DNA from: Isosphaeraceae bacterium
GTDB lineage: Bacteria; Planctomycetota; Planctomycetia; Isosphaerales; Isosphaeraceae
Length of the DNA: 64,000 bases
Assembly (NCBI GenBank): GCA_025356475.1
Contig: JANXSX010000212.1
Location: forward strand, 1 to 64,000
Reading direction: 5' to 3'
Shown here: positions 42,466 through 64,000 of the stretch, one piece after another
How the letters are laid out: each line of letters begins with the position of its first letter
How positions within the stretch are numbered: position 1 is the stretch's first letter
Position numbers and translations under genes: made by a program
Notes under the pieces: generated by a model
The model's database searches: none
The model's input: only the letters and a program-made list of their open reading frames with translations
What the model was told of the DNA's origin: nothing

Positions 42466-43944
42466 ATGTTTCATATATTCACGCTGTTCTTGGTGTGTGC
42501 ATTCATCCACAAGTCGACCAAGGATGGTCCACGCGAGGGCTTCTGGGAGGCTTGGTGGCTCTCGGCGATGCTGCTTCCGGTTTGGCTCGATATCCAAATC
42601 GGCTCGCTGAAGCTCGACCTCAGGAGCGTGGGCGCTGTCCTGGGACTGGGTGCAATCTTGCTTGCCCCCTCGGTGAAGCCGAAGGGGTTTTTCCGTCCAA
42701 CACTCTCCGATTTGATCATTCTGGTGATGGTCGCCGGGCAGATCATCTCGGAGAAGACCGTTGGCAAGTTCGGTCCGTTGACTGGCCCTGAACTTGCCCG
42801 GATCTGGCTACTCCCTTATGTCGTAGGTCGGGTCTTCCTGGGCTCTGAGTCCGACATTACGCGCGTCTTGCCGTCATTCGCGCGGATGGGGTTGGTTTTG
42901 ACGGTTTATTCGATGGTCGAGTCGGTGCTGAAGTTCAACCCTTTGAACCGGATTCTGGGGAAAACCTACGGGCTTCTGGAGCAAGGGGAGGGTTACCGCA
43001 TGGGGCTGAAACGCTGCCAGGCCGGTCTGGACCATCCTATTTTCTACGGAATGATGATGATCTTGCTGCTCCCCTGGGCACTCGAAGTCGGGCGTGAGGC
43101 GAAAAGGAGTTCAAGGCCAAAGTACTGGAAATACCTGGGCTGGCTCTGGGCGGGGGCGCTCATCGGATCGGTCTCGCGAGGCCCTCAACTGTGTGGTCTG
43201 GCGACGACTGGGATTTCTGTCTTCTTCAACAAACCTCGCAGGCGGGCCGCGATTCTCGGGTTCGCACTCGTTGGCGGAGTGGGGGTTTACGCGGCTAAAG
43301 CGATCGTGATGCAACTTTCCGCGACGATTTCGGGTGAGGCTGGTGAAGAGGCACGAATTATCTTCATTGATGGCGAGGAAGAAGAATATACAGGGACGAA
43401 ACACCGCATTCTCTTGTTCAAGGTTTATCGTGATGCCATCGAAAAGGCGGGGTGGTTCGGTCATGGGTATCAGATGCAGAGTATCCAACTGGAGGAATCA
43501 CTCGCCCAGCGGTTTGGCTCGATCGATTCGGCATTCATTCTCATCTTCCTCCAACGCGGTTGGCTTGGGCTTGGCTCCTTCCTACTCTTGCTTCTCAATT
43601 CACTGGTAATGCTGGCGAGGATGGCATGGTGTGCTCAAGGGGTTAGAGCATCGTTATCCGGATCGATCTTTGGTGCGATGGTGACTGTCTCTCTGGGTTT
43701 GTTCAGTGTATGGTTCGCCCCCGATTTTGGCACAATCTGGTTGTTCACTGCCGGTCTCGCGGCGAACCTTTGGGTTTTGCCTCACGACCGCGAACTCAAA
43801 TTTGAGCCTCGAACCGAGGGCGATCGGAAGCTCGACCCGATCGTGAAGACGACATTAACTCCGAGATTAGCGACAGGTGCTGCACCGGTCAGACGCTCGT
43901 CCGGGGGAGATCTCTCCGCGAAGTATCACAAGCCTGCTTCATAA
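42466..43944 (+). CDS. O-antigen polymerase/ligase-like membrane protein (Wzy/WaaL type)
   Basis: The 492-residue product has ten or more predicted membrane helices, a periplasmic loop near residues 270-330 (GEAGEEARIIFIDGEEEEYTGTKHRILLFKVYRDAIEKAGWFGHGY) and the terminal loop motif GHGYQMQSI followed by IDSAFILIFLQRGWLGLGSF. This is the pattern of the O-antigen ligase/polymerase (Wzy_C) family, which joins lipid-linked repeat units on the outer face of the inner membrane. The Pro-rich C-terminal tail is cytosolic. It overlaps the end of rmlC by 19 bp on the opposite strand. Polymerase or ligase cannot be told apart by sequence alone. Confidence 0.85.
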   Translation: MFHIFTLFLVCAFIHKSTKDGPREGFWEAWWLSAMLLPVWLDIQIGSLKLDLRSVGAVLGLGAILLAPSVKPKGFFRPTLSDLIILVMVAGQIISEKTVGKFGPLTGPELARIWLLPYVVGRVFLGSESDITRVLPSFARMGLVLTVYSMVESVLKFNPLNRILGKTYGLLEQGEGYRMGLKRCQAGLDHPIFYGMMMILLLPWALEVGREAKRSSRPKYWKYLGWLWAGALIGSVSRGPQLCGLATTGISVFFNKPRRRAAILGFALVGGVGVYAAKAIVMQLSATISGEAGEEARIIFIDGEEEEYTGTKHRILLFKVYRDAIEKAGWFGHGYQMQSIQLEESLAQRFGSIDSAFILIFLQRGWLGLGSFLLLLLNSLVMLARMAWCAQGVRASLSGSIFGAMVTVSLGLFSVWFAPDFGTIWLFTAGLAANLWVLPHDRELKFEPRTEGDRKLDPIVKTTLTPRLATGAAPVRRSSGGDLSAKYHKPAS

Positions 43945-44622: not shown

Positions 44623-46836
44623 TCAGATCGCCGGCTCAAGCACGATCTGCCCGAGTAACGGAGCGTCCAAACCGCGCAATTCGGTAAGGGTTTGTCGGGC
44701 TCGGGGTGTGGCGGAAACGGGCAAATCAATCACTGTGCAAATCCCCTGGGCCATCGCCGACAGAATCTGGAGGTCCACGTTGTGAGTCAGCGAGGGGCCG
44801 ATGAGCAAGATCATCGAATAACTGGTGCGCAGTTGTTCCAGGAGTTCACTCATCCGATGCGTGGCCAATGATTCTGCGGAGATATCACATCGACCAAGAG
44901 GAATCCAGTCAACGCCGTCACCGATGAGAGCGGGGTAACAGATTTCCTCTAGCCGATCTAAATCATATGCGAGGTAATCACCAAGACCCGGGCGTCCCTT
45001 GGTTCCAGGATTGGCTCGATCTGGGCCGGAGCCCTCCTCTGCAGGCTCGACCGAGGTCGGCGAGAACTGCACAGGTGCCAGATCGAATCGAGCATCTAGC
45101 AGGACGACTCGCTCGTCGCGGAGGGCGAGGCACCGGGCGATTGCCTCGACGATCGGCGCGGCGTTTCCTGCGTCCGTGTGAGTTGTGAACATGACCAGGC
45201 TTCCATACTCCGGGATGACCTGGCGCAACCTGAGGACAAATCCACGAAGGATCTGGGCTCCCTCTTTGTTGTAGTCGGGCCCGAGATGGGTGAGGATCGG
45301 CAAGCCAAGTTGGTTCGCTTTGGCGAGGCAGGTCCGAAAGTGAGCCCTTGCTTGGAGACCAAACAGTAGCCCTAGGCTGCCGACGATTCCAAGCCCTCCA
45401 ACTTCAATGAGTAAGAGCTTCTTGTTCGATGAGGCGGCGTATTCACTCGGGGTTCCCGGCGTGACGACGGTGAACTCTCCTCCTTTGAGGTCATAAAGAT
45501 GTCTGAGGGCTGCGACTCGTGACTCAAGATCCCTGCGTTCAAGGTCGTGGGCTTCAACACGTCGTTGGAGCCCCTCATATTCTCCCTTGAGCCGTTCTAG
45601 CCTCGCGACGTCGCGTATCTTCGTTTGCCGATCCTTCTCGGTCGATTCGATCCGCTGGCGGATCCCTTCGAGCTGCAGTTCCAGTTCGAGCTTATGGTAG
45701 AGGGTCTGCTGGATGATCGGCGAGCCGACGTTCTTCTTGTTTCCTTTGGGGATGACCATCTTGTCGATCCTCTCAAGCTCCTCCTGATATTTCTTGATCT
45801 GCTCGCTCTCGCGGATACGTGCAAAAAGCACTTCGATCTCGCTCCGAATCGTATCCAATTCCGAATTGCTGGCGGCTCCACGAGCGTGGAGTTTCTGGAC
45901 CCTCTCTAACTCGTGTCGCTTGGCATAGAGTTGGGCCTGGATTTCCTGGACTCGTCGTTCTTCGTCGATCAACTCCTTGAGCCGGTCCTGCCGGCGGCGA
46001 TTGTCGGCGACACTTTCGTTGGCCGCTTCAAACTGTTTTTCGATCTCGACTTCCTTGTCCTGTTGGGATTTGACGTGGTCCAGATAGTCATTGACTCCTT
46101 TCAGTTGGATCGCCCTCTCACCAACATCACGTTTTTGCTGCTCGATTGCTCCTTCCATGAGGATGATCTCGCGGCTGGCGGTAAGTAAGTCATTTTGGAA
46201 GTCGATGACGTGCTCACGCTCATGAAAGGCACGGGTTGCTTCAGAAGCCTCACTGAGTCGCAACCTGGAGCCTTCGAGGCTGGCTTCGAAGTCGGTGATG
46301 TGCCCCGCAAGCATTTCCTTGCGGAGTTGGATCACACGTTCTATGTAGATCTCTGAGAGGCGATTCAGCATACGAACGGTTGTCGGACCGTTATCCCACC
46401 GGAAACTGAGATTCATGATCTTGGTGCCGTTAGGAATCACGGCCGTCAGGTTTCGATCGAGGGCCTTGATCGGTAATTCAATCTTGAACTCTTTGCGGAT
46501 TTGCTCCAGGTTCTCGACCGAATTGACCATCGTTGCGAGCGTCTTGATATCGGGTGGATTGTAGAGACTCCGGTCTCTTTCAGATACGGGGAGCGGTGTG
46601 TAAATGAGAACACACGTGGCTTCCCAACTTTGCATTGCCAGAACCGTCGCGACCATGAGTGCGGTCGACGCGGAGAGTAAGAAGAATAGGGTCATCGCGC
46701 GCCAACGGCGGCAGATTGTTGCTTTCGTCAGATCGATCCAGAACCTGGTGATTCGTTCTGTGGAGGAGGAGCTCGGGCTTGGTTTGGAAACAGTCGGCCC
46801 TGGTGTGATGATGCGATCAGGTAAGTCGCTCGTCAT
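44623..46836 (-). CDS. Wzz/GNVR chain-length protein with degenerate BY-kinase domain
   Basis: The 737-residue product has an N-terminal helix (about 44-68), a periplasmic Wzz-like domain, a long coiled coil (about 165-465) with GNVR-like segments, a second helix (about 472-495) and a cytosolic C-terminal domain. The last resembles bacterial tyrosine kinases of the Wzc/CpsD type, but Walker A reads TTHTDAGNAAP instead of GxxGKS/T, so the essential Lys is missing. Walker A' keeps its Asp (VVLLDARFD). No C-terminal Tyr cluster is present. It probably sets chain length without kinase activity of its own. It is second last in the minus-strand operon. Confidence 0.88.
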   Translation of the reverse strand: MTSDLPDRIITPGPTVSKPSPSSSSTERITRFWIDLTKATICRRWRAMTLFFLLSASTALMVATVLAMQSWEATCVLIYTPLPVSERDRSLYNPPDIKTLATMVNSVENLEQIRKEFKIELPIKALDRNLTAVIPNGTKIMNLSFRWDNGPTTVRMLNRLSEIYIERVIQLRKEMLAGHITDFEASLEGSRLRLSEASEATRAFHEREHVIDFQNDLLTASREIILMEGAIEQQKRDVGERAIQLKGVNDYLDHVKSQQDKEVEIEKQFEAANESVADNRRRQDRLKELIDEERRVQEIQAQLYAKRHELERVQKLHARGAASNSELDTIRSEIEVLFARIRESEQIKKYQEELERIDKMVIPKGNKKNVGSPIIQQTLYHKLELELQLEGIRQRIESTEKDRQTKIRDVARLERLKGEYEGLQRRVEAHDLERRDLESRVAALRHLYDLKGGEFTVVTPGTPSEYAASSNKKLLLIEVGGLGIVGSLGLLFGLQARAHFRTCLAKANQLGLPILTHLGPDYNKEGAQILRGFVLRLRQVIPEYGSLVMFTTHTDAGNAAPIVEAIARCLALRDERVVLLDARFDLAPVQFSPTSVEPAEEGSGPDRANPGTKGRPGLGDYLAYDLDRLEEICYPALIGDGVDWIPLGRCDISAESLATHRMSELLEQLRTSYSMILLIGPSLTHNVDLQILSAMAQGICTVIDLPVSATPRARQTLTELRGLDAPLLGQIVLEPAI

Positions 46837-48262: not shown

Positions 48263-49081
48263 TCACTTCCCCCCGTTGTTTTGAAGGCCCCATGGGCAGA
48301 TGATCACTCGGGCCAGGAAGACCGCATTCCGCCAATAGCGACGAGCCAGCCGCTTCGGCTCCATGGCCAGTCGGTAGGCCCACTCCATCCCGAGGCGACC
48401 GACCCACCGAGGGGCTCGACGGACCCGTCCTGCTGCGAAGTCGATCGAGGCCCCGATCTGGAATGCAGCGGGAACCCCGAGCGCCCTATAGTTGTCCTTC
48501 AGCCAGATCTCACCTCGAGGTTGGCTGGCGGCAAGAAAGAGAATCTCGGGTTGGGCTGCCTGGACTGAGGCAATGAGTTCGTCGTTCTCCCTGTCTGTAA
48601 GTTCCCGAAATGGTGGGACAACAATCCCGACGACGTCGAGCTGCGGAAATCGCCGACAGAGGTTCTCAACAGCCTGCGACGCGACTCCTTCGGCTCCACC
48701 CAGAAAGAAGACCTTGTAGCCTTTCTTGGCGGCAAGCTCGCAAACAGCCGGCAGTAAATCACTACCCGCCACCCGTTCGGGGAGTGGCTGGCCCAAGAAT
48801 CGGGATGCCCAGACTAGAGGCATCCCGTCGGCGACAACAATCGAAGCTTCGGCATTGACCTGTCGAAGCTTTGGATGGTCTCGGCTGAGCATCGCATAGT
48901 TCAAATTCGCCGTCACCAGGAAATGTGGCTGGCCATTCTCGATCATCCTGTCGACTTCGTCGAGAACCTGTCTCATGGTTAGAGAAGCGAGTGGCAATCC
49001 CCAGACCTCGACCGTTCTCCGATTCGAGAGGTGTTCGTGTTCGGGGCTGACGACCTTACTTATTAGTGTCGATACGCTCAT
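48263..49081 (-). CDS. WecG/TagA/CpsF family glycosyltransferase (GT26)
   Basis: I chose the ATG at 49081 (272 residues) with GGGGAA 7 bases upstream; TTG at 49096 is weaker. Family motifs are clear: FLVTANLNYAMLSRD, VVADGMPLVWASRFLG, ERVAGSDLLPAVCELAAKKGYKVFFLGGAEGVA, and AASQPRGEIWLKDNYRALG with AFQIGASIDFAAG. The family transfers ManNAc-type sugars or glucuronic acid to lipid-linked GlcNAc, usually as the second sugar of the unit. This is the first gene of the minus operon wecG-like, GT4, Wzz, rmlC and is divergent from the GT4 at 49167. Confidence 0.92.
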   Translation of the reverse strand: MSVSTLISKVVSPEHEHLSNRRTVEVWGLPLASLTMRQVLDEVDRMIENGQPHFLVTANLNYAMLSRDHPKLRQVNAEASIVVADGMPLVWASRFLGQPLPERVAGSDLLPAVCELAAKKGYKVFFLGGAEGVASQAVENLCRRFPQLDVVGIVVPPFRELTDRENDELIASVQAAQPEILFLAASQPRGEIWLKDNYRALGVPAAFQIGASIDFAAGRVRRAPRWVGRLGMEWAYRLAMEPKRLARRYWRNAVFLARVIICPWGLQNNGGK

Positions 49082-49166
49082 TGAGACGTTCCCCAAAAGT
49101 GACTCGCTCTTCCCGAAAAATCATCACACCGCCACTCGATCCGTCCAGTGAGAGTACAGATCACTC

Positions 49167-50294: not shown

Positions 50295-51289
50295 GTCAGA
50301 CCCATCATCAACCTGGGCTCAGCGTCGTTCTCGTCAGCTACAACACCCGAGAGTTGCTCCGTCAGTGCCTGGAATCGATTCGACGACACGAACCCGAAGC
50401 TCAGGTGATCGTCGTCGATAACGGAAGTCGTGACGATTCGCCAGATATGATCACAACGAACTTCCCCGAAGTGACCCTGATCCAGATGGGCTGGAACGCG
50501 GGGTTCGCTGCCGCAAACAATGCCGGTATGGCCCAATCCGTCGGCAAGACCGTGGTCCTTCTGAACTCGGACACCGTGCTCGAAGACGACACGCTTTCAC
50601 GGGCGACCGAGTGGCTGAAAACCCGGCCCGAAGTCGGGGCAACCAGCCCCAAACTTATGGGAAACGATGGCCGTCCACAGGAATGTCTTTACGAATTCCC
50701 GAGTCTGCGTGGTCTGCTGCGTAACGCAATGCGACTACCTCAATCCCCACCGACGTCCAAGGCACGCTGGTTGGCCGGGACCGCCCTAACGATCCGACGC
50801 GAGGCCCTTGAATCAATCGATAATAAACTCGATGATCAATTCTGGATGTATTGGGAAGATGCCGACCTCTCGGCCCGACTTCTCGCCAAGGCTTGGAAGG
50901 TCGAGGCCTTCGAAGGAGGTCAGATCATCCACCACGGAGGAGCCAGTGGAGGTGGAGCCGATGCAAACCGTCGGGCCGATCTTCAGGCGTGGTATGTATA
51001 TGGCAAACACCGCTGGTTCACAAAGCACCGATCGATTGCCGTGGCTTCCGCTGTCTGGTTGCTCGATTTCCTGGACGTTGCGCGGATGTGGGGACGTAGC
51101 TTGATCAGAGCGGATCAACGCAACGCACGTGTATATGCATCGGTGACAGCCCGAGTACTACTCGACCGACTCCGGGGTCTCAGACCGCCTGTGCCGGGAG
51201 GTCTCCCGAGCGATCAGGCAAGAAGCCAGACCGCCCCGAGTCCCGTCGTCATCCAGAGCAGAGTGATCCCTAGTTCGGTAAACCCGTAG
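50291..51289 (+). CDS. Glycosyltransferase, GT2 family (GT-A), rhamnosyltransferase-like
   Basis: The 332-residue product opens with LSVVLVSYNTRELLRQCLESI and has VVDNGSRDDSP, the LNSDT acidic motif for the metal, and MYWEDADLSARLLAKAW with the catalytic acid. This layout is common in rhamnosyltransferases of the GT2 family and fits dTDP-rhamnose genes in the cluster. The C-terminal tail, with Pro/Ser-rich composition, overlaps the end of the Wzx-like gene on the other strand by 76 bp. Confidence 0.92.
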   Translation: MSQTHHQPGLSVVLVSYNTRELLRQCLESIRRHEPEAQVIVVDNGSRDDSPDMITTNFPEVTLIQMGWNAGFAAANNAGMAQSVGKTVVLLNSDTVLEDDTLSRATEWLKTRPEVGATSPKLMGNDGRPQECLYEFPSLRGLLRNAMRLPQSPPTSKARWLAGTALTIRREALESIDNKLDDQFWMYWEDADLSARLLAKAWKVEAFEGGQIIHHGGASGGGADANRRADLQAWYVYGKHRWFTKHRSIAVASAVWLLDFLDVARMWGRSLIRADQRNARVYASVTARVLLDRLRGLRPPVPGGLPSDQARSQTAPSPVVIQSRVIPSSVNP

Positions 51290-52545
51290 CCGATCTTGCG
51301 GTGAAGTAGCCAGGTTTGCACCCCAGTGAGGACCGTCGTCGATCCGAGGACTGCCAATGCCAGGCCCAGTATCCCATAAGCTGGAACGAGTCGTGTGAAC
51401 AGTGCGGCTTGGACAACCAAGGCTACGAGATAGGCCTTGGTCGCCAGGTTCACCTCGGCTCGGGCCAGGAGGTACTGGAACTGAACTTGCCCGAGTCCGC
51501 GGATCAGCAATCGGGCGATCAGGACCGCAAAGATCGGTCGAGCATCTGCATAGCGGGAGTCGTATAAGGTGCGGATCACCAGCGGGGCGACGATGATTGC
51601 CACCGCTCCACAAGGCATGAGGAAGAGGGTGATCCGTCGACAGGTGACCCGGTGCCACTCCGCTTGAGCGGTAGGGTCGCCACGCCTGGCAAGCACTGAG
51701 AAGTAGACGTCGCAACCACGAGCCATCAAGACTTCTGCAACAGTGGCAAGATTCCAAGCGACTGCGTAACAGCCCATCTCAGTCACCGAGATGAACCGCA
51801 ATCCGAGCAGACGATCCATGTTCATCCAAAGGGCCATGACAAGTGTATTGAGTAACACTTGACGTCCAAGATGACCGATATCATGGGCCGCTATACGGTC
51901 CCAGTGCCATCGGGGCCGCATCGGGCATAAGATATAAGAGATCGCCACTGCGGCGATCGTGCCGCAAATCGTCCCACCGACAATCGACCAGACCGAGTGC
52001 GTCGCCATCGCCAGAGCGAGACTCACCGCTGTCCCTGTGGCGGTCTGAATGATTTCATCAATACAGAGTGCCCGATAGTTAAGCTCGCGGCGGAGTATCG
52101 GCATGCCAGGGCTACGGAACGCAAACAAAATCGGTCGGAGCGCAAGCCCCATCAACACGCCGACAAGTTCAGGTTGACCCCAAAAGACCGAGAGCGGCCC
52201 AGCGATTAGCATCGCACACGCGCCTACACATGTGCCGCGAATGACCGTCAACCACCAGCCCGTTAGGAGGTAGTTTGCCTCCGATCCACGGGGATGGCGG
52301 ACTAATGCCGGCTGGATTCCCAGGTCCGATAGCCATTCCAGAGTCGTGAGCACCGCCATTGCTGAGCTGAGCAATCCGTACGCCTGTGGCATCAGAATGC
52401 GGGCCAAGAGCACGTTGCTGACGAGACGAATTGATAGACCAATGAGCTGAGCCAGCCCCGACCAGCCGAGGCTGAATAGGCCCGCACGTGAGTCGCCACT
52501 TAGCCAAACGCTCACTCGATTCGTTCTATCCAGTATTGCAGTCAT
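51214..52545 (-). CDS. Lipid-linked oligosaccharide flippase (Wzx-like)
   Basis: I chose the ATG at 52545 (443 residues); GTG 52551 and TTG 52557 are alternatives right after the upstream stop. About twelve membrane helices in the polysaccharide_synt (MATE-like) pattern are seen, with LIGLSIRLVSNVLLARILMPQAYGLL near the start, EWLSDLGIQPALVRHP and ALWMNMDRLLGLRFI. Such proteins move undecaprenyl-linked units to the outer face. The gene is third in a minus operon after GT4 and GT2, with 13 bp to the GT2. Substrate is unknown. Confidence 0.88.
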   Translation of the reverse strand: MTAILDRTNRVSVWLSGDSRAGLFSLGWSGLAQLIGLSIRLVSNVLLARILMPQAYGLLSSAMAVLTTLEWLSDLGIQPALVRHPRGSEANYLLTGWWLTVIRGTCVGACAMLIAGPLSVFWGQPELVGVLMGLALRPILFAFRSPGMPILRRELNYRALCIDEIIQTATGTAVSLALAMATHSVWSIVGGTICGTIAAVAISYILCPMRPRWHWDRIAAHDIGHLGRQVLLNTLVMALWMNMDRLLGLRFISVTEMGCYAVAWNLATVAEVLMARGCDVYFSVLARRGDPTAQAEWHRVTCRRITLFLMPCGAVAIIVAPLVIRTLYDSRYADARPIFAVLIARLLIRGLGQVQFQYLLARAEVNLATKAYLVALVVQAALFTRLVPAYGILGLALAVLGSTTVLTGVQTWLLHRKIGYGFTELGITLLWMTTGLGAVWLLA

Positions 52546-52558
52546 TGTCACATTCAAC

Positions 52559-58498: not shown

Positions 58499-60217
58499 GT
58501 GAGGAAATCCCAAATTGGACATGTCCGAACTGAGGCTGGTTTGCGCCGAACGATTCGTTGGAGTGACACTCCTTACTCGGAAGGAATGATGATTGTCCGC
58601 ACGGGGGTTGATGTCTCGGAGCAGATTCAGCCGAGCATGAACGAAAGTCGCCCTCTCTTCACTTCCTGGATGCCTGAGATCACCAAGAGAAAGCCGGATG
58701 AACTTGACGATGAGACCGCTCTTAAGGCGAACGATTACGTGCTGGCGAATATGGGGCACGAACTCCGAACTCCCCTGACAGCGATCCTTGGCTATGCCGA
58801 TATGCTTCGTCAGACGAGGCTTACTGAAGACCATTCCGCCAAGCTCCTTGACGCTATTCGTCAGAACGGTGAAGAGTTGCTCCAGATCGTTGGGAATGTC
58901 CTGGATCTCGCAGAGAGCAACACCGACTCGGCAGAGATCAAACTCGCTCTGGTCTCCCCGTGGGCTGTGGTTGCTCAGGTCGTTGCCGATCATAAGGGCA
59001 GAGCCAAAGAGAAAGCTTTGCAGCTCATTGCGACTTGTGATGGTCCCTTCCCGGCGAACGTTCAAACCAGTCTGGTCCGGCTTCGGCAGATTCTCTCCAG
59101 CCTGATTTCGAATGCCATCAAGTTTTCAACGAGTGGTCGCGTCTCGATCCGTATGTGGATTGAGTTAAGTCAATCGGAGGTACTGGACACGCTTTGTTTC
59201 GAGGTTAACGACGACGGCATCGGCATGTTGCCGGAAGAGATTGAGTGTGTGTTTACTCCATTTTACCAGGCGGATTCGTCGCACACCCGAGCTCAAGGAG
59301 GAGTCGGCCTTGGGCTCTGGGTCGCCAGGCGGCAAGCTGAACCACTTAAGGGTGAAATCAAGCTCGAGAGCCGGGCAGGGAAGGGCAGCAGAATCACAGT
59401 GCACCTACCAGTCCGATTCGATCGCTCAACCTTGATTGACCAATCCGAATGCTCGGGTGTGGTCTCCTCGGCATTCGAAATGGATCAGGTGGACCACTTC
59501 GGCATACCTCGGGGCCATGTGCTTCTTGCCGAGGATAACTGTGACACCCAACGCGTTCTTACCTACGATCTCCAGAGAATTGGCCTCACCCTTGAGATCG
59601 CTGAGAACGGGCGAATCGCGATCGAGAAAGGCCTTCGAGGGGAATTTGATGCAGTCTTGATGGACATCCAGATGCCCGAGATCGACGGCTATGCCGCAAC
59701 CCGGGCACTCAGGCGAGGCGGGTTTACCAAGCCGATTATTGCGATTACCACGCACGCGTTTGCTGGCGACGCGGAGAAGTGTCTTCTTGCCGGCTGTGAC
59801 GACTATCTTCGCAAACCGATCGAACTCAAAAATCTTCATCAGAAGCTATGTAAACAGTTGAAGGCGTCGACCGCTTCGGGAGATTCGATCATTGCCAGCG
59901 AACTGGATTTGCCACCTGAGTTTCGAGAGGACCCGGCCTACCTCGAACTCGTCGATGACTATGTCCAGAGTCTCCCCGAGCAGATCGCGGAACTTGATCA
60001 GGCCGTGCGGGGCCGCGATGGTGAACGGTCGGCGAAGCTCGCGCATGTGCTGCGAGGTGCAGGGGGGATGTATGGCCTGGCCAACCTCAGCCTGGCCGCC
60101 GGGCGAATTGAAGATGGAGTGCGACTCTTCCATGACTGGGACAGAATCGCCGACCATCTGGCTGAAGTTTTTGCGATCCTCAACCGGCTCCATCGCGAAC
60201 TTGCTTATGCGTCTTAA
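58499..60217 (+). CDS. Hybrid histidine kinase with receiver and HPt domains (5' end broken)
   Basis: The frame from GTG 58499 gives 572 residues: a partial PAS/PAC end (1-45), HisKA with GHELRTPLTAILGY (His87), HATPase_c with ISNAIKFS, NDDGIGMLP and GGVGLGLWVARR, a receiver with LLAEDNCDTQ, LMDIQMPEIDG and LRKPI, and a C-terminal HPt domain with LAHVLRGAGGMYG (His near 516). All phosphorelay residues are present, so an active core could still be made from an internal start such as ATG 58637. The full ancestral gene began upstream, at about 58292. Sitting inside the polysaccharide cluster, it may regulate it. Confidence 0.85.
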   Translation: MRKSQIGHVRTEAGLRRTIRWSDTPYSEGMMIVRTGVDVSEQIQPSMNESRPLFTSWMPEITKRKPDELDDETALKANDYVLANMGHELRTPLTAILGYADMLRQTRLTEDHSAKLLDAIRQNGEELLQIVGNVLDLAESNTDSAEIKLALVSPWAVVAQVVADHKGRAKEKALQLIATCDGPFPANVQTSLVRLRQILSSLISNAIKFSTSGRVSIRMWIELSQSEVLDTLCFEVNDDGIGMLPEEIECVFTPFYQADSSHTRAQGGVGLGLWVARRQAEPLKGEIKLESRAGKGSRITVHLPVRFDRSTLIDQSECSGVVSSAFEMDQVDHFGIPRGHVLLAEDNCDTQRVLTYDLQRIGLTLEIAENGRIAIEKGLRGEFDAVLMDIQMPEIDGYAATRALRRGGFTKPIIAITTHAFAGDAEKCLLAGCDDYLRKPIELKNLHQKLCKQLKASTASGDSIIASELDLPPEFREDPAYLELVDDYVQSLPEQIAELDQAVRGRDGERSAKLAHVLRGAGGMYGLANLSLAAGRIEDGVRLFHDWDRIADHLAEVFAILNRLHRELAYAS

Positions 60218-60253: not shown

Positions 60254-61147
60254 TTAAATCTTGATGAATTCACTCTCGCAGGGGGCCTCGTTTGCAATCT
60301 TTCGGAGATAGTTGCCGTAGTCGTTTTTCAACGAGTCTGCGACGTGGAGAACTTGCCAAGCTTCGATATATCCCATGCGATAGGCGACTTCTTCAAGGCA
60401 GGCAACCTTGAGCCCCTGACGTGTCTCCACGGATTGGATGAAGCTCCCTGCCTGCTGGAGCGAGTCCGGTGTGCCGGTGTCGAGCCATGCGATACCACGG
60501 CCCAGGATATCGAGCCGGAGCTGCTCACGGCGGAGATACTCGCGATTGACGTCGGTGATCTCCAACTCGCCACGAGGAGACGGGATTAGATCCTCCGCGA
60601 TGTCCAGAACCTGGTTGTCATAGAAGTAAAGTCCCGTCACCGCGTACTGGGACTTCGGACGTTCCGGTTTCTCTTCCAGCTCAATCACAGCACCGTTCCG
60701 GTCAAACTCGGCGACTCCGTAGCGTTCTGGATCTTGAACGTGGTAGCCGAAAATCGTGGCCCCTTCAATTCGCGCTGCGGCTGTTTGAAGAATTCGGCTC
60801 AGGCCGTGTCCATAAAAGACATTATCGCCAAGAACCAACGCGACCCGGTCTCCAGCGACAAACTCCCGACCGATGATGAACGCCTGGGCCAGGCCTTCCG
60901 GTCGCGGTTGCACGGCATATTGGAGGTGAATCCCCCACTCTTCGCCCGAGCCGAGCAGTTCTTCATAACGTTTGATGTCGGAAGGTGTAGAAATGACAAG
61001 TATGTCGCGAATCCCGGCAAGCATCAAGGTACTCAAGGGATAGTAGATCATTGGCTTGTCATAGATCGGCAGGAGCTGTTTGCTGACGACCCGCGTCAAC
61101 GGGTAGAGCCGAGTTCCGGATCCCCCCGCGAGAATGATCCCCTTCAT
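60254..61147 (-). CDS. rmlA: Glucose-1-phosphate thymidylyltransferase
   Basis: The 297-residue product has the RmlA signature [13 protein letters not shown], then [35 protein letters not shown] with the metal-binding Asp, [21 protein letters not shown] and TDVNREYL. It couples glucose-1-phosphate with dTTP to give dTDP-glucose, the first step of dTDP-rhamnose and related sugars. Length and motifs are typical. It lies at the 3' end of the minus operon that begins with the STAS gene at 63985, 78 bp after the fusion gene. Confidence 0.95.
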
Positions 61148-61225: not shown

Positions 61226-62833
61226 TTAGTACATCTTTGGCAACGTTTCCCCGGACTCCTCACTCGGGGTGAAGGAAGCTTGGGCCTTGCGGTTCTTCAG
61301 GTGAGGTCTTCGAGCAAAAAACGGCGTGCTCGGCTCCGTGCGCGTTGCGGCGTGGTTGTGACCAAAGAGAGCCCGGCCAACATATGCGACCGAGAGTCGC
61401 AGGTCATGTCTCAATCCGCCGGCGGCAACGTAGTAGAAATCCGAGACGCGATGGTCGTCATCGCTCAATGACGAAGCGGGGACCAAGCTTGTCTCGGTGA
61501 TCAGTCCCGACCGTGCGCGGAGGTAAGAAGGCCGCCAATCCTGCGGTAGACCTTCAACTTCCTCTGGAGCACGGGGGGGGACTCCCACGAGTCTGAGATC
61601 TCCTTTGACCACGTTGAAAAGCCCCGGTAGAAAGCGCAGTAAGACGTCGTCGAGACCGGAAAGCTCCTGGGTCTTTCCTTCAGTAAATCGCCAGAGCCGG
61701 TAGGTCTTCCATCTCGAATTGTCCGATGAGGCCGGTAGCCGTAATGCCTCGGTCGAGACTAGAACTTGCCCTCCTCGAACGAGCTTGAGGGTTATTGCCG
61801 TTGCTAGCAGCAAGGGCGCGACGATCACCAGTCCGACCAACGCGAAGAATCTCGTGAGGAACCCAACAAGGTGAGACTTCAAACCACGCGCCGAGACTGC
61901 CGAGAGGAGTAGGTCGTCTTCAAGCGTCATCTCGACTCCGAGCGAGACTTCGACCAGATGGCTCTTCGAAACAATTGCGTGGTGGAGTTCTGTCCCCTGC
62001 CCAACATAGGTCAAAGGGAGAAGGACCGAATCGGTGATCGAGCACCGGCTGTCGAGAATACATCCATGGCCGACTACGGCATTAGGGCCGATTTCGGCTC
62101 CAGCCCCGACCTGACAGTCTTCGCCGATATAAACGGGCGGCAAGATCTGCGCTTTGGGATGGACCACGACATTGCGAGAGAGCCAGACTCCGGGCTCAAC
62201 CTCAACCGCCCCAAACAGCAATCCTGACACCTTTCCGTCGATAGCCGCACGGTTGCTATCGAGATATGAGCCGAAATAGCGAACGTCGAAGACAACATTA
62301 TCAAGATCAATGATCCGCTTACTCGTAGATTGAAATCGAGCGGTCAGTACACGCTCATCCGCATCGGTCGGCAGATGCTCGACATCCCGGCGTGAGATCC
62401 ACGCCCAGCCCGTCCAAACCGAATCCTCGCCTGTTCGCCTCGAAAAAAGGGTCAGTTCTTGGCAGAGTAGTGGATGTTCGAGCACCCCTAAGATCGGCAA
62501 TCGGTCTGCATGGCCTAGAAGAACAGGGGAGTCATCGAGCGGCGGACCCATTGTCAGTAACGTGCGGTAGGGTTGATCCGGATCACGTGCCAAGTGGTAG
62601 CGGATTCTGACTCCCCAGCGCGTTCCATCCCCAAAGTGTTCTTCGATTTGATAGGCTTGATGACTCACGACGATGTCGAACTGATCGAAACCTGATATCG
62701 ACAAGGATTCGATAATGTGTTGAAGGATGGGACGGTCGGCGATCGGCATCATCGCGGACGCGAATTGTTCGCTGAGCGCACCATCCCCCGGACAGGATCC
62801 AGCGGCCATCAAGATCGCTCGCATTGACATCAT
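61226..62833 (-). CDS. Fusion: nucleotidyltransferase-like, hexapeptide beta-helix, degenerate PGT
   Basis: Three ATG codons (62833, 62830, 62824) follow GGAG closely; the start is not settled. The N-terminal part, about residues 4-215, follows the sugar-nucleotide transferase fold (MRAILMAAG), but the GGxGTRL loop is replaced by GSCPGDGALSEQF, so activity is doubtful. Residues about 215-320 form left-handed hexapeptide repeats (VYIGEDCQVGAGAEIGPNAVVGHGCIL). A membrane helix follows (about 327-350) and then a PGT-like domain ending NVVKGDLRLVGVPPRAPEE. In active enzymes Asp-Glu-Leu-Pro precedes this; here it is Arg-Phe-Leu-Pro. The gene lies next to a canonical PGT and rmlA. Confidence 0.82.
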   Translation of the reverse strand: MMSMRAILMAAGSCPGDGALSEQFASAMMPIADRPILQHIIESLSISGFDQFDIVVSHQAYQIEEHFGDGTRWGVRIRYHLARDPDQPYRTLLTMGPPLDDSPVLLGHADRLPILGVLEHPLLCQELTLFSRRTGEDSVWTGWAWISRRDVEHLPTDADERVLTARFQSTSKRIIDLDNVVFDVRYFGSYLDSNRAAIDGKVSGLLFGAVEVEPGVWLSRNVVVHPKAQILPPVYIGEDCQVGAGAEIGPNAVVGHGCILDSRCSITDSVLLPLTYVGQGTELHHAIVSKSHLVEVSLGVEMTLEDDLLLSAVSARGLKSHLVGFLTRFFALVGLVIVAPLLLATAITLKLVRGGQVLVSTEALRLPASSDNSRWKTYRLWRFTEGKTQELSGLDDVLLRFLPGLFNVVKGDLRLVGVPPRAPEEVEGLPQDWRPSYLRARSGLITETSLVPASSLSDDDHRVSDFYYVAAGGLRHDLRLSVAYVGRALFGHNHAATRTEPSTPFFARRPHLKNRKAQASFTPSEESGETLPKMY

Positions 62834-63607: not shown

Positions 63608-63985
63608 TTAGCTCCCCGCCAGAACGGTCGTGGCGGTCTCGGCCTCGAAGGCGCGGATGGCCTCATCTCGGGTGTTGTAAATGTCGAGAACCTTGTGGAT
63701 CCGGACCATCTCGAAGACGAGCCTGACCTGCTTGGTTGCACCACAAATTTTCAAGTCGCCCGGGCCCTGCCCCGTGCTGTTCACGCGGCGTGCGCAGGTC
63801 AGGATGGCCCCGCAGCCCGAACTGTCGATGAAACGTACCGCGCTCAGATCCAGGATCACCAATCCGCCTGCGGGGAGCCGATCAATCAAGTCGCGATGCA
63901 AGTCTTTCGACAAACCCGCATCAAGATGAGTGATGTCAGGGGTCACGACCGTGAACGGACCATAGGATTCGATGCTGACATTCAT
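63608..63985 (-). CDS. STAS-domain protein (anti-sigma factor antagonist-like)
   Basis: I chose the ATG at 63985 (125 residues); a GTG at 63988 also exists. The layout matches SpoIIAA-type STAS proteins: TVVTPDITHLDAGLSKDLHRDLIDRL, VILDLSAVRFIDSSGCGAIL with the phosphorylatable Ser in DSSG, and LKICGATKQVRLVFEMVRIHKVLDIY. Such proteins are phosphorylated by an anti-sigma kinase and switch partners. It lies 3 bp before the PGT gene and is the first gene of that operon in view, so it may control polysaccharide synthesis. No partner kinase or phosphatase gene is in the window. Confidence 0.92.
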   Translation of the reverse strand: MNVSIESYGPFTVVTPDITHLDAGLSKDLHRDLIDRLPAGGLVILDLSAVRFIDSSGCGAILTCARRVNSTGQGPGDLKICGATKQVRLVFEMVRIHKVLDIYNTRDEAIRAFEAETATTVLAGS

Positions 63986-64000
63986 CACGAATTTGACCTC

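Follow-up and report, generated by a model that had tools for sequence, protein, structure and literature searches.

In the GMPPA/GMPPB system, an inactive subunit composed of a nucleotidyltransferase (NT) domain and a left-handed beta-helix (LbH) regulates its active paralogue. Bifunctional monotopic phosphoglycosyl transferases (PGTs) reportedly carry extra domains that are functional. The start of a glycan commits scarce undecaprenyl phosphate, and an understanding of how this step is gated is only now emerging. The accessory domain of the PGT WbaP senses nucleotides and dimerises (PMC10942596), while the PGT EpsZ is activated by EpsW, probably by direct contact, and small PGTs have been described as functional monomers (PMC12802240). 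For the polysaccharide-linked STAS proteins SypA and HmpV, no target is known (PMC8256260).

Here, a window of 64,000 nucleotides from an Isosphaeraceae bacterium was analyzed, where an NT-LbH-PGT fusion lies beside an active small PGT (Table 1).

Table 1. Features of the fusion locus and its surroundings (window positions, unless a contig or another locus is named)
Feature	Position	Strand	Evidence or remark
NT-LbH-PGT fusion pseudoenzyme, 535 aa	61226..62833	(-)	ORF, Pfam, 18 homologues
Shortened nucleotidyltransferase-like domain, residues 4-204	62222..62824	(-)	Retains GDGxRWG; lacks the GGxGTRL loop, the EKP segment and the catalytic Lys
Site of lost GGxGTRL loop, residues 11-20	62774..62803	(-)
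LbH with hexapeptide repeats, residues 205-318	61880..62221	(-)	Hexapep in 16/16 members
PGT-type re-entrant membrane helix including Pro, residues 320-350	61784..61876	(-)	Pro shared by active and dead PGTs
Degenerate PGT catalytic domain, residues 363-490	61364..61747	(-)	Pfam, alignment, structure-profile match
Arg400-Phe401 codons at the PGT Asp-Glu position	61631..61636	(-)	Alignment, PglC structure match
Active small PGT, 247 aa	62861..63604	(-)	Bac_transf E=3e-62; SIDELPQL and KFRSM intact
STAS-domain-only protein, DSSG phospho-serine motif	63608..63988	(-)	Pfam, locus comparison
GAF-SpoIIE phosphatase and HATPase kinase, one polypeptide	contig 64001-66106 = L040:4001-6106	(-)	Just outside the window
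RmlA, intact	60254..61147	(-)	Downstream of fusion, same orientation; also adjacent in a single other genome
Wzy-like O-antigen ligase/polymerase domain protein	42466..43944	(+)	Same polysaccharide region
WecG/TagA glycosyltransferase	48263..49096	(-)	Stand-alone in window; fused to dead PGT in other loci
Wzx-like flippase	51214..52557	(-)
WecG/TagA-dead PGT fusions	L035:9039-10490(-), L066:8341-9597(-), L067:4942-6198(+)		Beside active PGT

Domain Architecture and Lost Active Sites

The initial annotation had proposed a fusion of nucleotidyltransferase, LbH, and PGT parts, and an open reading frame was present at the corresponding coordinates with Pfam matches above the gathering score for all three: NTP_transferase (residues 6-86), Hexapep (217-249), and Bac_transf (329-483). 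The Bac_transf (PF02397) match, at 33.4 bits against a curated cut-off of 27, identifies the C-terminal part as a PGT homologue. Most homologues start where residue 4 (Met) of the window copy lies, and the C-terminal ~45 residues are mostly private to the window copy. A structure prediction of the window sequences reached a pLDDT of 37, a confidence too low for use.

A profile was built from the C-terminal parts of ten family members and run against solved structures, where it matched PglC and WbaP, with PglC 8e37 as the best match (E=1e-9). The profile pairs the LLLRFLPGL of the fusion (lrflPgL in the family) with the LSLDELPQL of PglC, and R400-F401 therefore occupy the columns of the Asp-Glu dyad of monotopic PGTs. 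This agrees with the earlier reading of Arg-Phe from codons near 61625-61660, which are now placed at 61636-61631. When active and dead domains were aligned together, all 18 active PGTs of the family loci showed D-E, and none of the 13 members with a complete PGT domain had kept the pair. The residues at the pair in these 13 fusions were RF, RF, RF, LF, RV, RV, EL, EL, TR, RR, RR, DK, and DK, so that two retain the Asp and no fusion among them retains the Glu. KFRSM, another PGT motif, was likewise lost from the fusion, and the helix-breaking Pro of the re-entrant helix was kept in the window copy and in nearly all members.

In the N-terminal part, the loop that had been noted as lacking GGxGTRL reads A-A-G-S-C-P-G-D, and the KP motif has lost the catalytic Lys that, like this loop, is expected in PF00483. 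The EKP sugar-binding segment was absent from all 17 aligned members, and ~30 residues separate the metal Asp from the TGxY strand in the fusion, versus ~60 in the neighboring RmlA. Neither this segment nor KFRSM had been named among the losses in the initial annotation. The metal-binding Asp of PF00483 is retained as D110 and was kept in 12 of the 17 aligned members, among which the GDGxRWG motif (G-x-R-W-G) is nearly invariant. Judged by these motifs, the fusion appears to have kept its fold and membrane anchor and to have lost its chemistry.

Family Distribution and Selection

Members of the family were sought in the phylum of the host, covering its order, a class sample, two families, and a phylum sample, and 19 were found. 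Their distribution is patchy, with occurrences in 2 of 45 genomes of the host's order and in 7 of 95 and 3 of 170 genomes of two other families. A search for this domain order in other genomes had been suggested at the outset, together with the view that homologues keeping both motifs would mark the window copy as decayed. No such homologue was found: among these members, the loss of Asp-Glu is common to all 13 complete ones, and the GGxGTRL loop was seen in no aligned homologue of the same architecture. The dead PGT domain was missing from five members (G205, G297, G235, G070, and G413), of which G205 retains a hydrophobic PGT-like helix and the other four largely do not. Some candidates were set aside during the search. 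The LpxD/LpxA-like match in a Desulfomicrobiaceae contig, found by exact peptide patterns, was a match to the LbH only, G585 and G420 were ordinary nucleotidyltransferases, and the membership of G496 was doubtful, as it carries a long insert and its surroundings yielded no PGT.

The reading frame was open in all 19 genomes, with one (G291) interrupted by a contig end. For the closest pair, G703 and G686 (dS 0.85), the dN/dS was 0.033 for the fusion, 0.042 for its NT domain, 0 for the LbH, and 0.046 for the dead PGT domain, next to 0.035 for the active PGT. The fusion is under strong purifying selection and is not a decaying copy.

Genomic Coupling to an Active PGT

The active PGT was located directly upstream of the fusion and on the same strand in 13 loci. 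A STAS gene lies between the two in G413, G703, and G686, a single gene separates them in G499, and the PGT is ~4 kb off in G487. No PGT was found for G678 on its 4.7-kb contig. As a control for this coupling, a profile of the PGTs from family loci was run against the class sample. All of the 11 top-scoring matches, with E values between 2e-116 and 5e-110, came from fusion loci, and the next match followed only at 1.3e-98. Fourteen control PGTs, comprising the next-best class matches (E of 1.3e-98 and weaker) and two further PGTs, had no fusion, STAS, HATPase, or SpoIIE gene within 1.5 kb at any of their loci (0/14). Likewise, in the host's order a closely similar PGT was present only in the two fusion genomes (100 and 77%), the next best being at 52-57%. 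The coupling of fusion and PGT is strict and involves one PGT subfamily only.

The adjacent gene had been described as having both motifs intact. This holds for its PGT motifs, SIDELPQL and KFRSM. The protein is without a nucleotidyltransferase domain, and the intact GGxGTRL of the locus belongs to RmlA. Of the suggestion that the fusion is a scaffold or regulator working with the active PGT or with RmlA, the link to the PGT is borne out by the strict coupling, and the role itself is one that we infer. RmlA adjoins the fusion in 2 of 19 loci, and it was rejected as a partner since this adjacency is not conserved. By its motifs and its gene neighborhood, the fusion is well supported as catalytically dead and as tied to an active PGT.

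Besides the Wzx-like, Wzy-like, and WecG/TagA genes, the window includes several glycosyltransferase genes, and the active PGT therefore probably initiates a Wzx/Wzy-type polysaccharide. The same region encodes a 737-aa protein without a Pfam match (44623-46836(-)). At 58499-60217(+), converging on the RmlA end of the operon, lies a gene for a hybrid histidine kinase, whose domains are HisKA, HATPase, receiver, and Hpt. Beyond the window, upstream of the operon and in the same orientation, a 3492-aa protein rich in DUF11 and SdrD_B repeats is encoded (L040:6766-17244(-)). A plasmid search gave no match, nor did Rfam within the window.

In G499, G703, and G686, the same locus encodes a further PGT domain without Asp-Glu (HR, SS, and SS, respectively), fused to WecG/TagA. 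This suggests that dead PGT domains may be membrane docking modules in such pathways.

A Partner-Switching Module in the Locus

The operon of the host runs in the order SpoIIE-phosphatase/HATPase-kinase, STAS, active PGT, dead fusion, and RmlA, with gaps of 12, 3, and 27 bases between the first four genes. All three elements of a partner-switching module, namely a SpoIIE phosphatase, a HATPase kinase, and a STAS protein, were found in this locus. The module had gone unnamed in the initial annotation, and its larger part is encoded outside the window. Across the family, a STAS gene was present beside 14 of the 19 loci, and SpoIIE or HATPase in about 10. By chance, ~0.15 STAS loci within 3 kb would be expected across 16 genomes, an estimate that rests on 2 to 38 STAS matches per genome, versus 13 of 16 observed. 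G703 and G686 have only two STAS matches per genome, one of which is between PGT and fusion.

Any control by STAS would not be universal, because four loci (G205, G297, G235, and G070) have PGT and fusion without STAS. The presence of the dead PGT domain was associated with that of STAS (Fisher p 0.002-0.008). On the tree, this association comes down to about two independent losses (sign test p ~0.5), and it is therefore only suggestive. In G112, the phospho-serine motif of the STAS protein (L029:6564-7103(+)) is degraded to DAAG, and its close relative G205 has lost STAS as well as the dead PGT domain, a pattern in which the switch may have been lost step by step.

Proposed Role and Alternatives

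Taken by domain content and gene order, the fusion probably scaffolds or regulates polysaccharide initiation rather than catalysing it. The explanation that we lean toward, with some reserve, is that of a membrane-anchored double pseudoenzyme acting as a dedicated non-catalytic partner of the adjacent active PGT, probably under control by STAS phosphorylation. Both the contact between fusion and PGT and the control by STAS would be as the gene arrangement suggests. At the membrane, the active PGT would be paired with the dead PGT part and its re-entrant helix; the LbH would render the assembly oligomeric, and the nucleotidyltransferase-like domain would serve for binding or sensing. With less certainty, the HATPase kinase may phosphorylate the STAS protein and the SpoIIE phosphatase dephosphorylate it, and the STAS protein may bind the PGT-fusion complex and act as an on/off switch for polysaccharide initiation. 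Undecaprenyl phosphate would then be committed on signal only. It is a tentative suggestion that the dead PGT domain is the direct STAS effector, where the unphosphorylated STAS protein would bind the fusion and so gate the active PGT. Since small PGTs have been described as functional monomers (PMC12802240), a partner would not be required in principle, which counts against the gated-partner explanation.

Several alternatives were weighed against it. The fusion could be a scaffold without any part in signaling that brings the PGT together with the source of sugar nucleotides or with the glycosyltransferase of the following step. STAS would then have a different target, such as a sigma factor controlling the operon. 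The coupling of PGT and fusion is indeed tighter than that of STAS, and the WecG/TagA proteins fused to a second dead PGT would fit such docking. However, STAS is found between PGT and fusion in three genomes and close by in others, control PGTs are unaccompanied by it, and the adjacency to RmlA is not conserved; we regard this scaffold as rather unlikely. Further down in probability is a changed chemistry, in which the NT or LbH part has an unrecognised activity such as acyl transfer. LbH domains are often acyltransferases, and the metal-binding Asp and GDGxRWG motif have been retained as described above, but the NT domain lacks the GGxGTRL loop, the Lys, and the sugar-binding segment, no invariant His was found in the LbH across the family alignment, and the LbH domains of eIF2B and GMPPB-type proteins are among its best Pfam matches.

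That the fusion is a pseudogene, decayed from an NT-LbH-PGT enzyme that once had both functions, has been largely refuted and is now very improbable. Such decay would account for the loss of both active sites and for the faster divergence of the fusion, which shares 51% identity between the window and G007 versus 81% for the adjacent PGT. Against it stand the open frames across the family, the dN/dS of 0.03 to 0.05 in the close pair, the losses shared by all members, and the strict gene coupling to the PGT.

Comparison with Known Systems

A dead PGT with an active PGT, usually accompanied by a STAS phospho-switch, offers a compact four-protein system for testing the control of glycan initiation. 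The locus points to the initiating transferase complex as a target of polysaccharide-linked STAS proteins. If true, gating by STAS and a dead PGT would be a so far undescribed control of the first committed step of polysaccharide synthesis, as well as a candidate answer to what such STAS proteins target. In the literature searched, the scope of which did not extend to O'Toole et al. (2021) on PGT fusions, no described system of this kind was found, nor any paper pairing 'phosphoglycosyl transferase' with 'pseudoenzyme'. Single steps have precedents in EpsW-EpsZ, WbaP, and the polysaccharide-linked STAS proteins, and no paper joining them was found in that literature.

The likeness to GMPPA/GMPPB lies in the NT-like and LbH architecture and in an inactive copy that goes with an active enzyme, a pairing here indicated by genomic coupling. 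The regulated enzyme there is a nucleotidyltransferase, whereas here it would be a PGT, and a dead PGT domain is fused in addition. Bifunctional monotopic PGTs also have extra domains fused to the PGT domain; these are reportedly functional (O'Toole et al. 2021, cited in PMC12802240 and PMC10942596), while the PGT and NT parts of the fusion are both inactive by motif. In SypA/SypE of Vibrio fischeri, a STAS phospho-switch controls a polysaccharide, as is proposed here, with no known downstream target, although no dead PGT fusion was seen reported there (PMC4517449, PMC8256260). EpsW-EpsZ of Myxococcus xanthus resembles the proposed arrangement in that a signaling protein controls an initiating PGT post-translationally, but its input is a response regulator, its target is a large PGT, and no pseudoenzyme is involved (PMC12802240). 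Large monotopic PGTs such as WbaP share a sugar-nucleotide-enzyme-like domain placed by a PGT and thought to sense nucleotides and dimerise (PMC10942596). In WbaP, this domain is in cis on the active PGT, whereas in the present family it is on a separate protein, together with a dead PGT.
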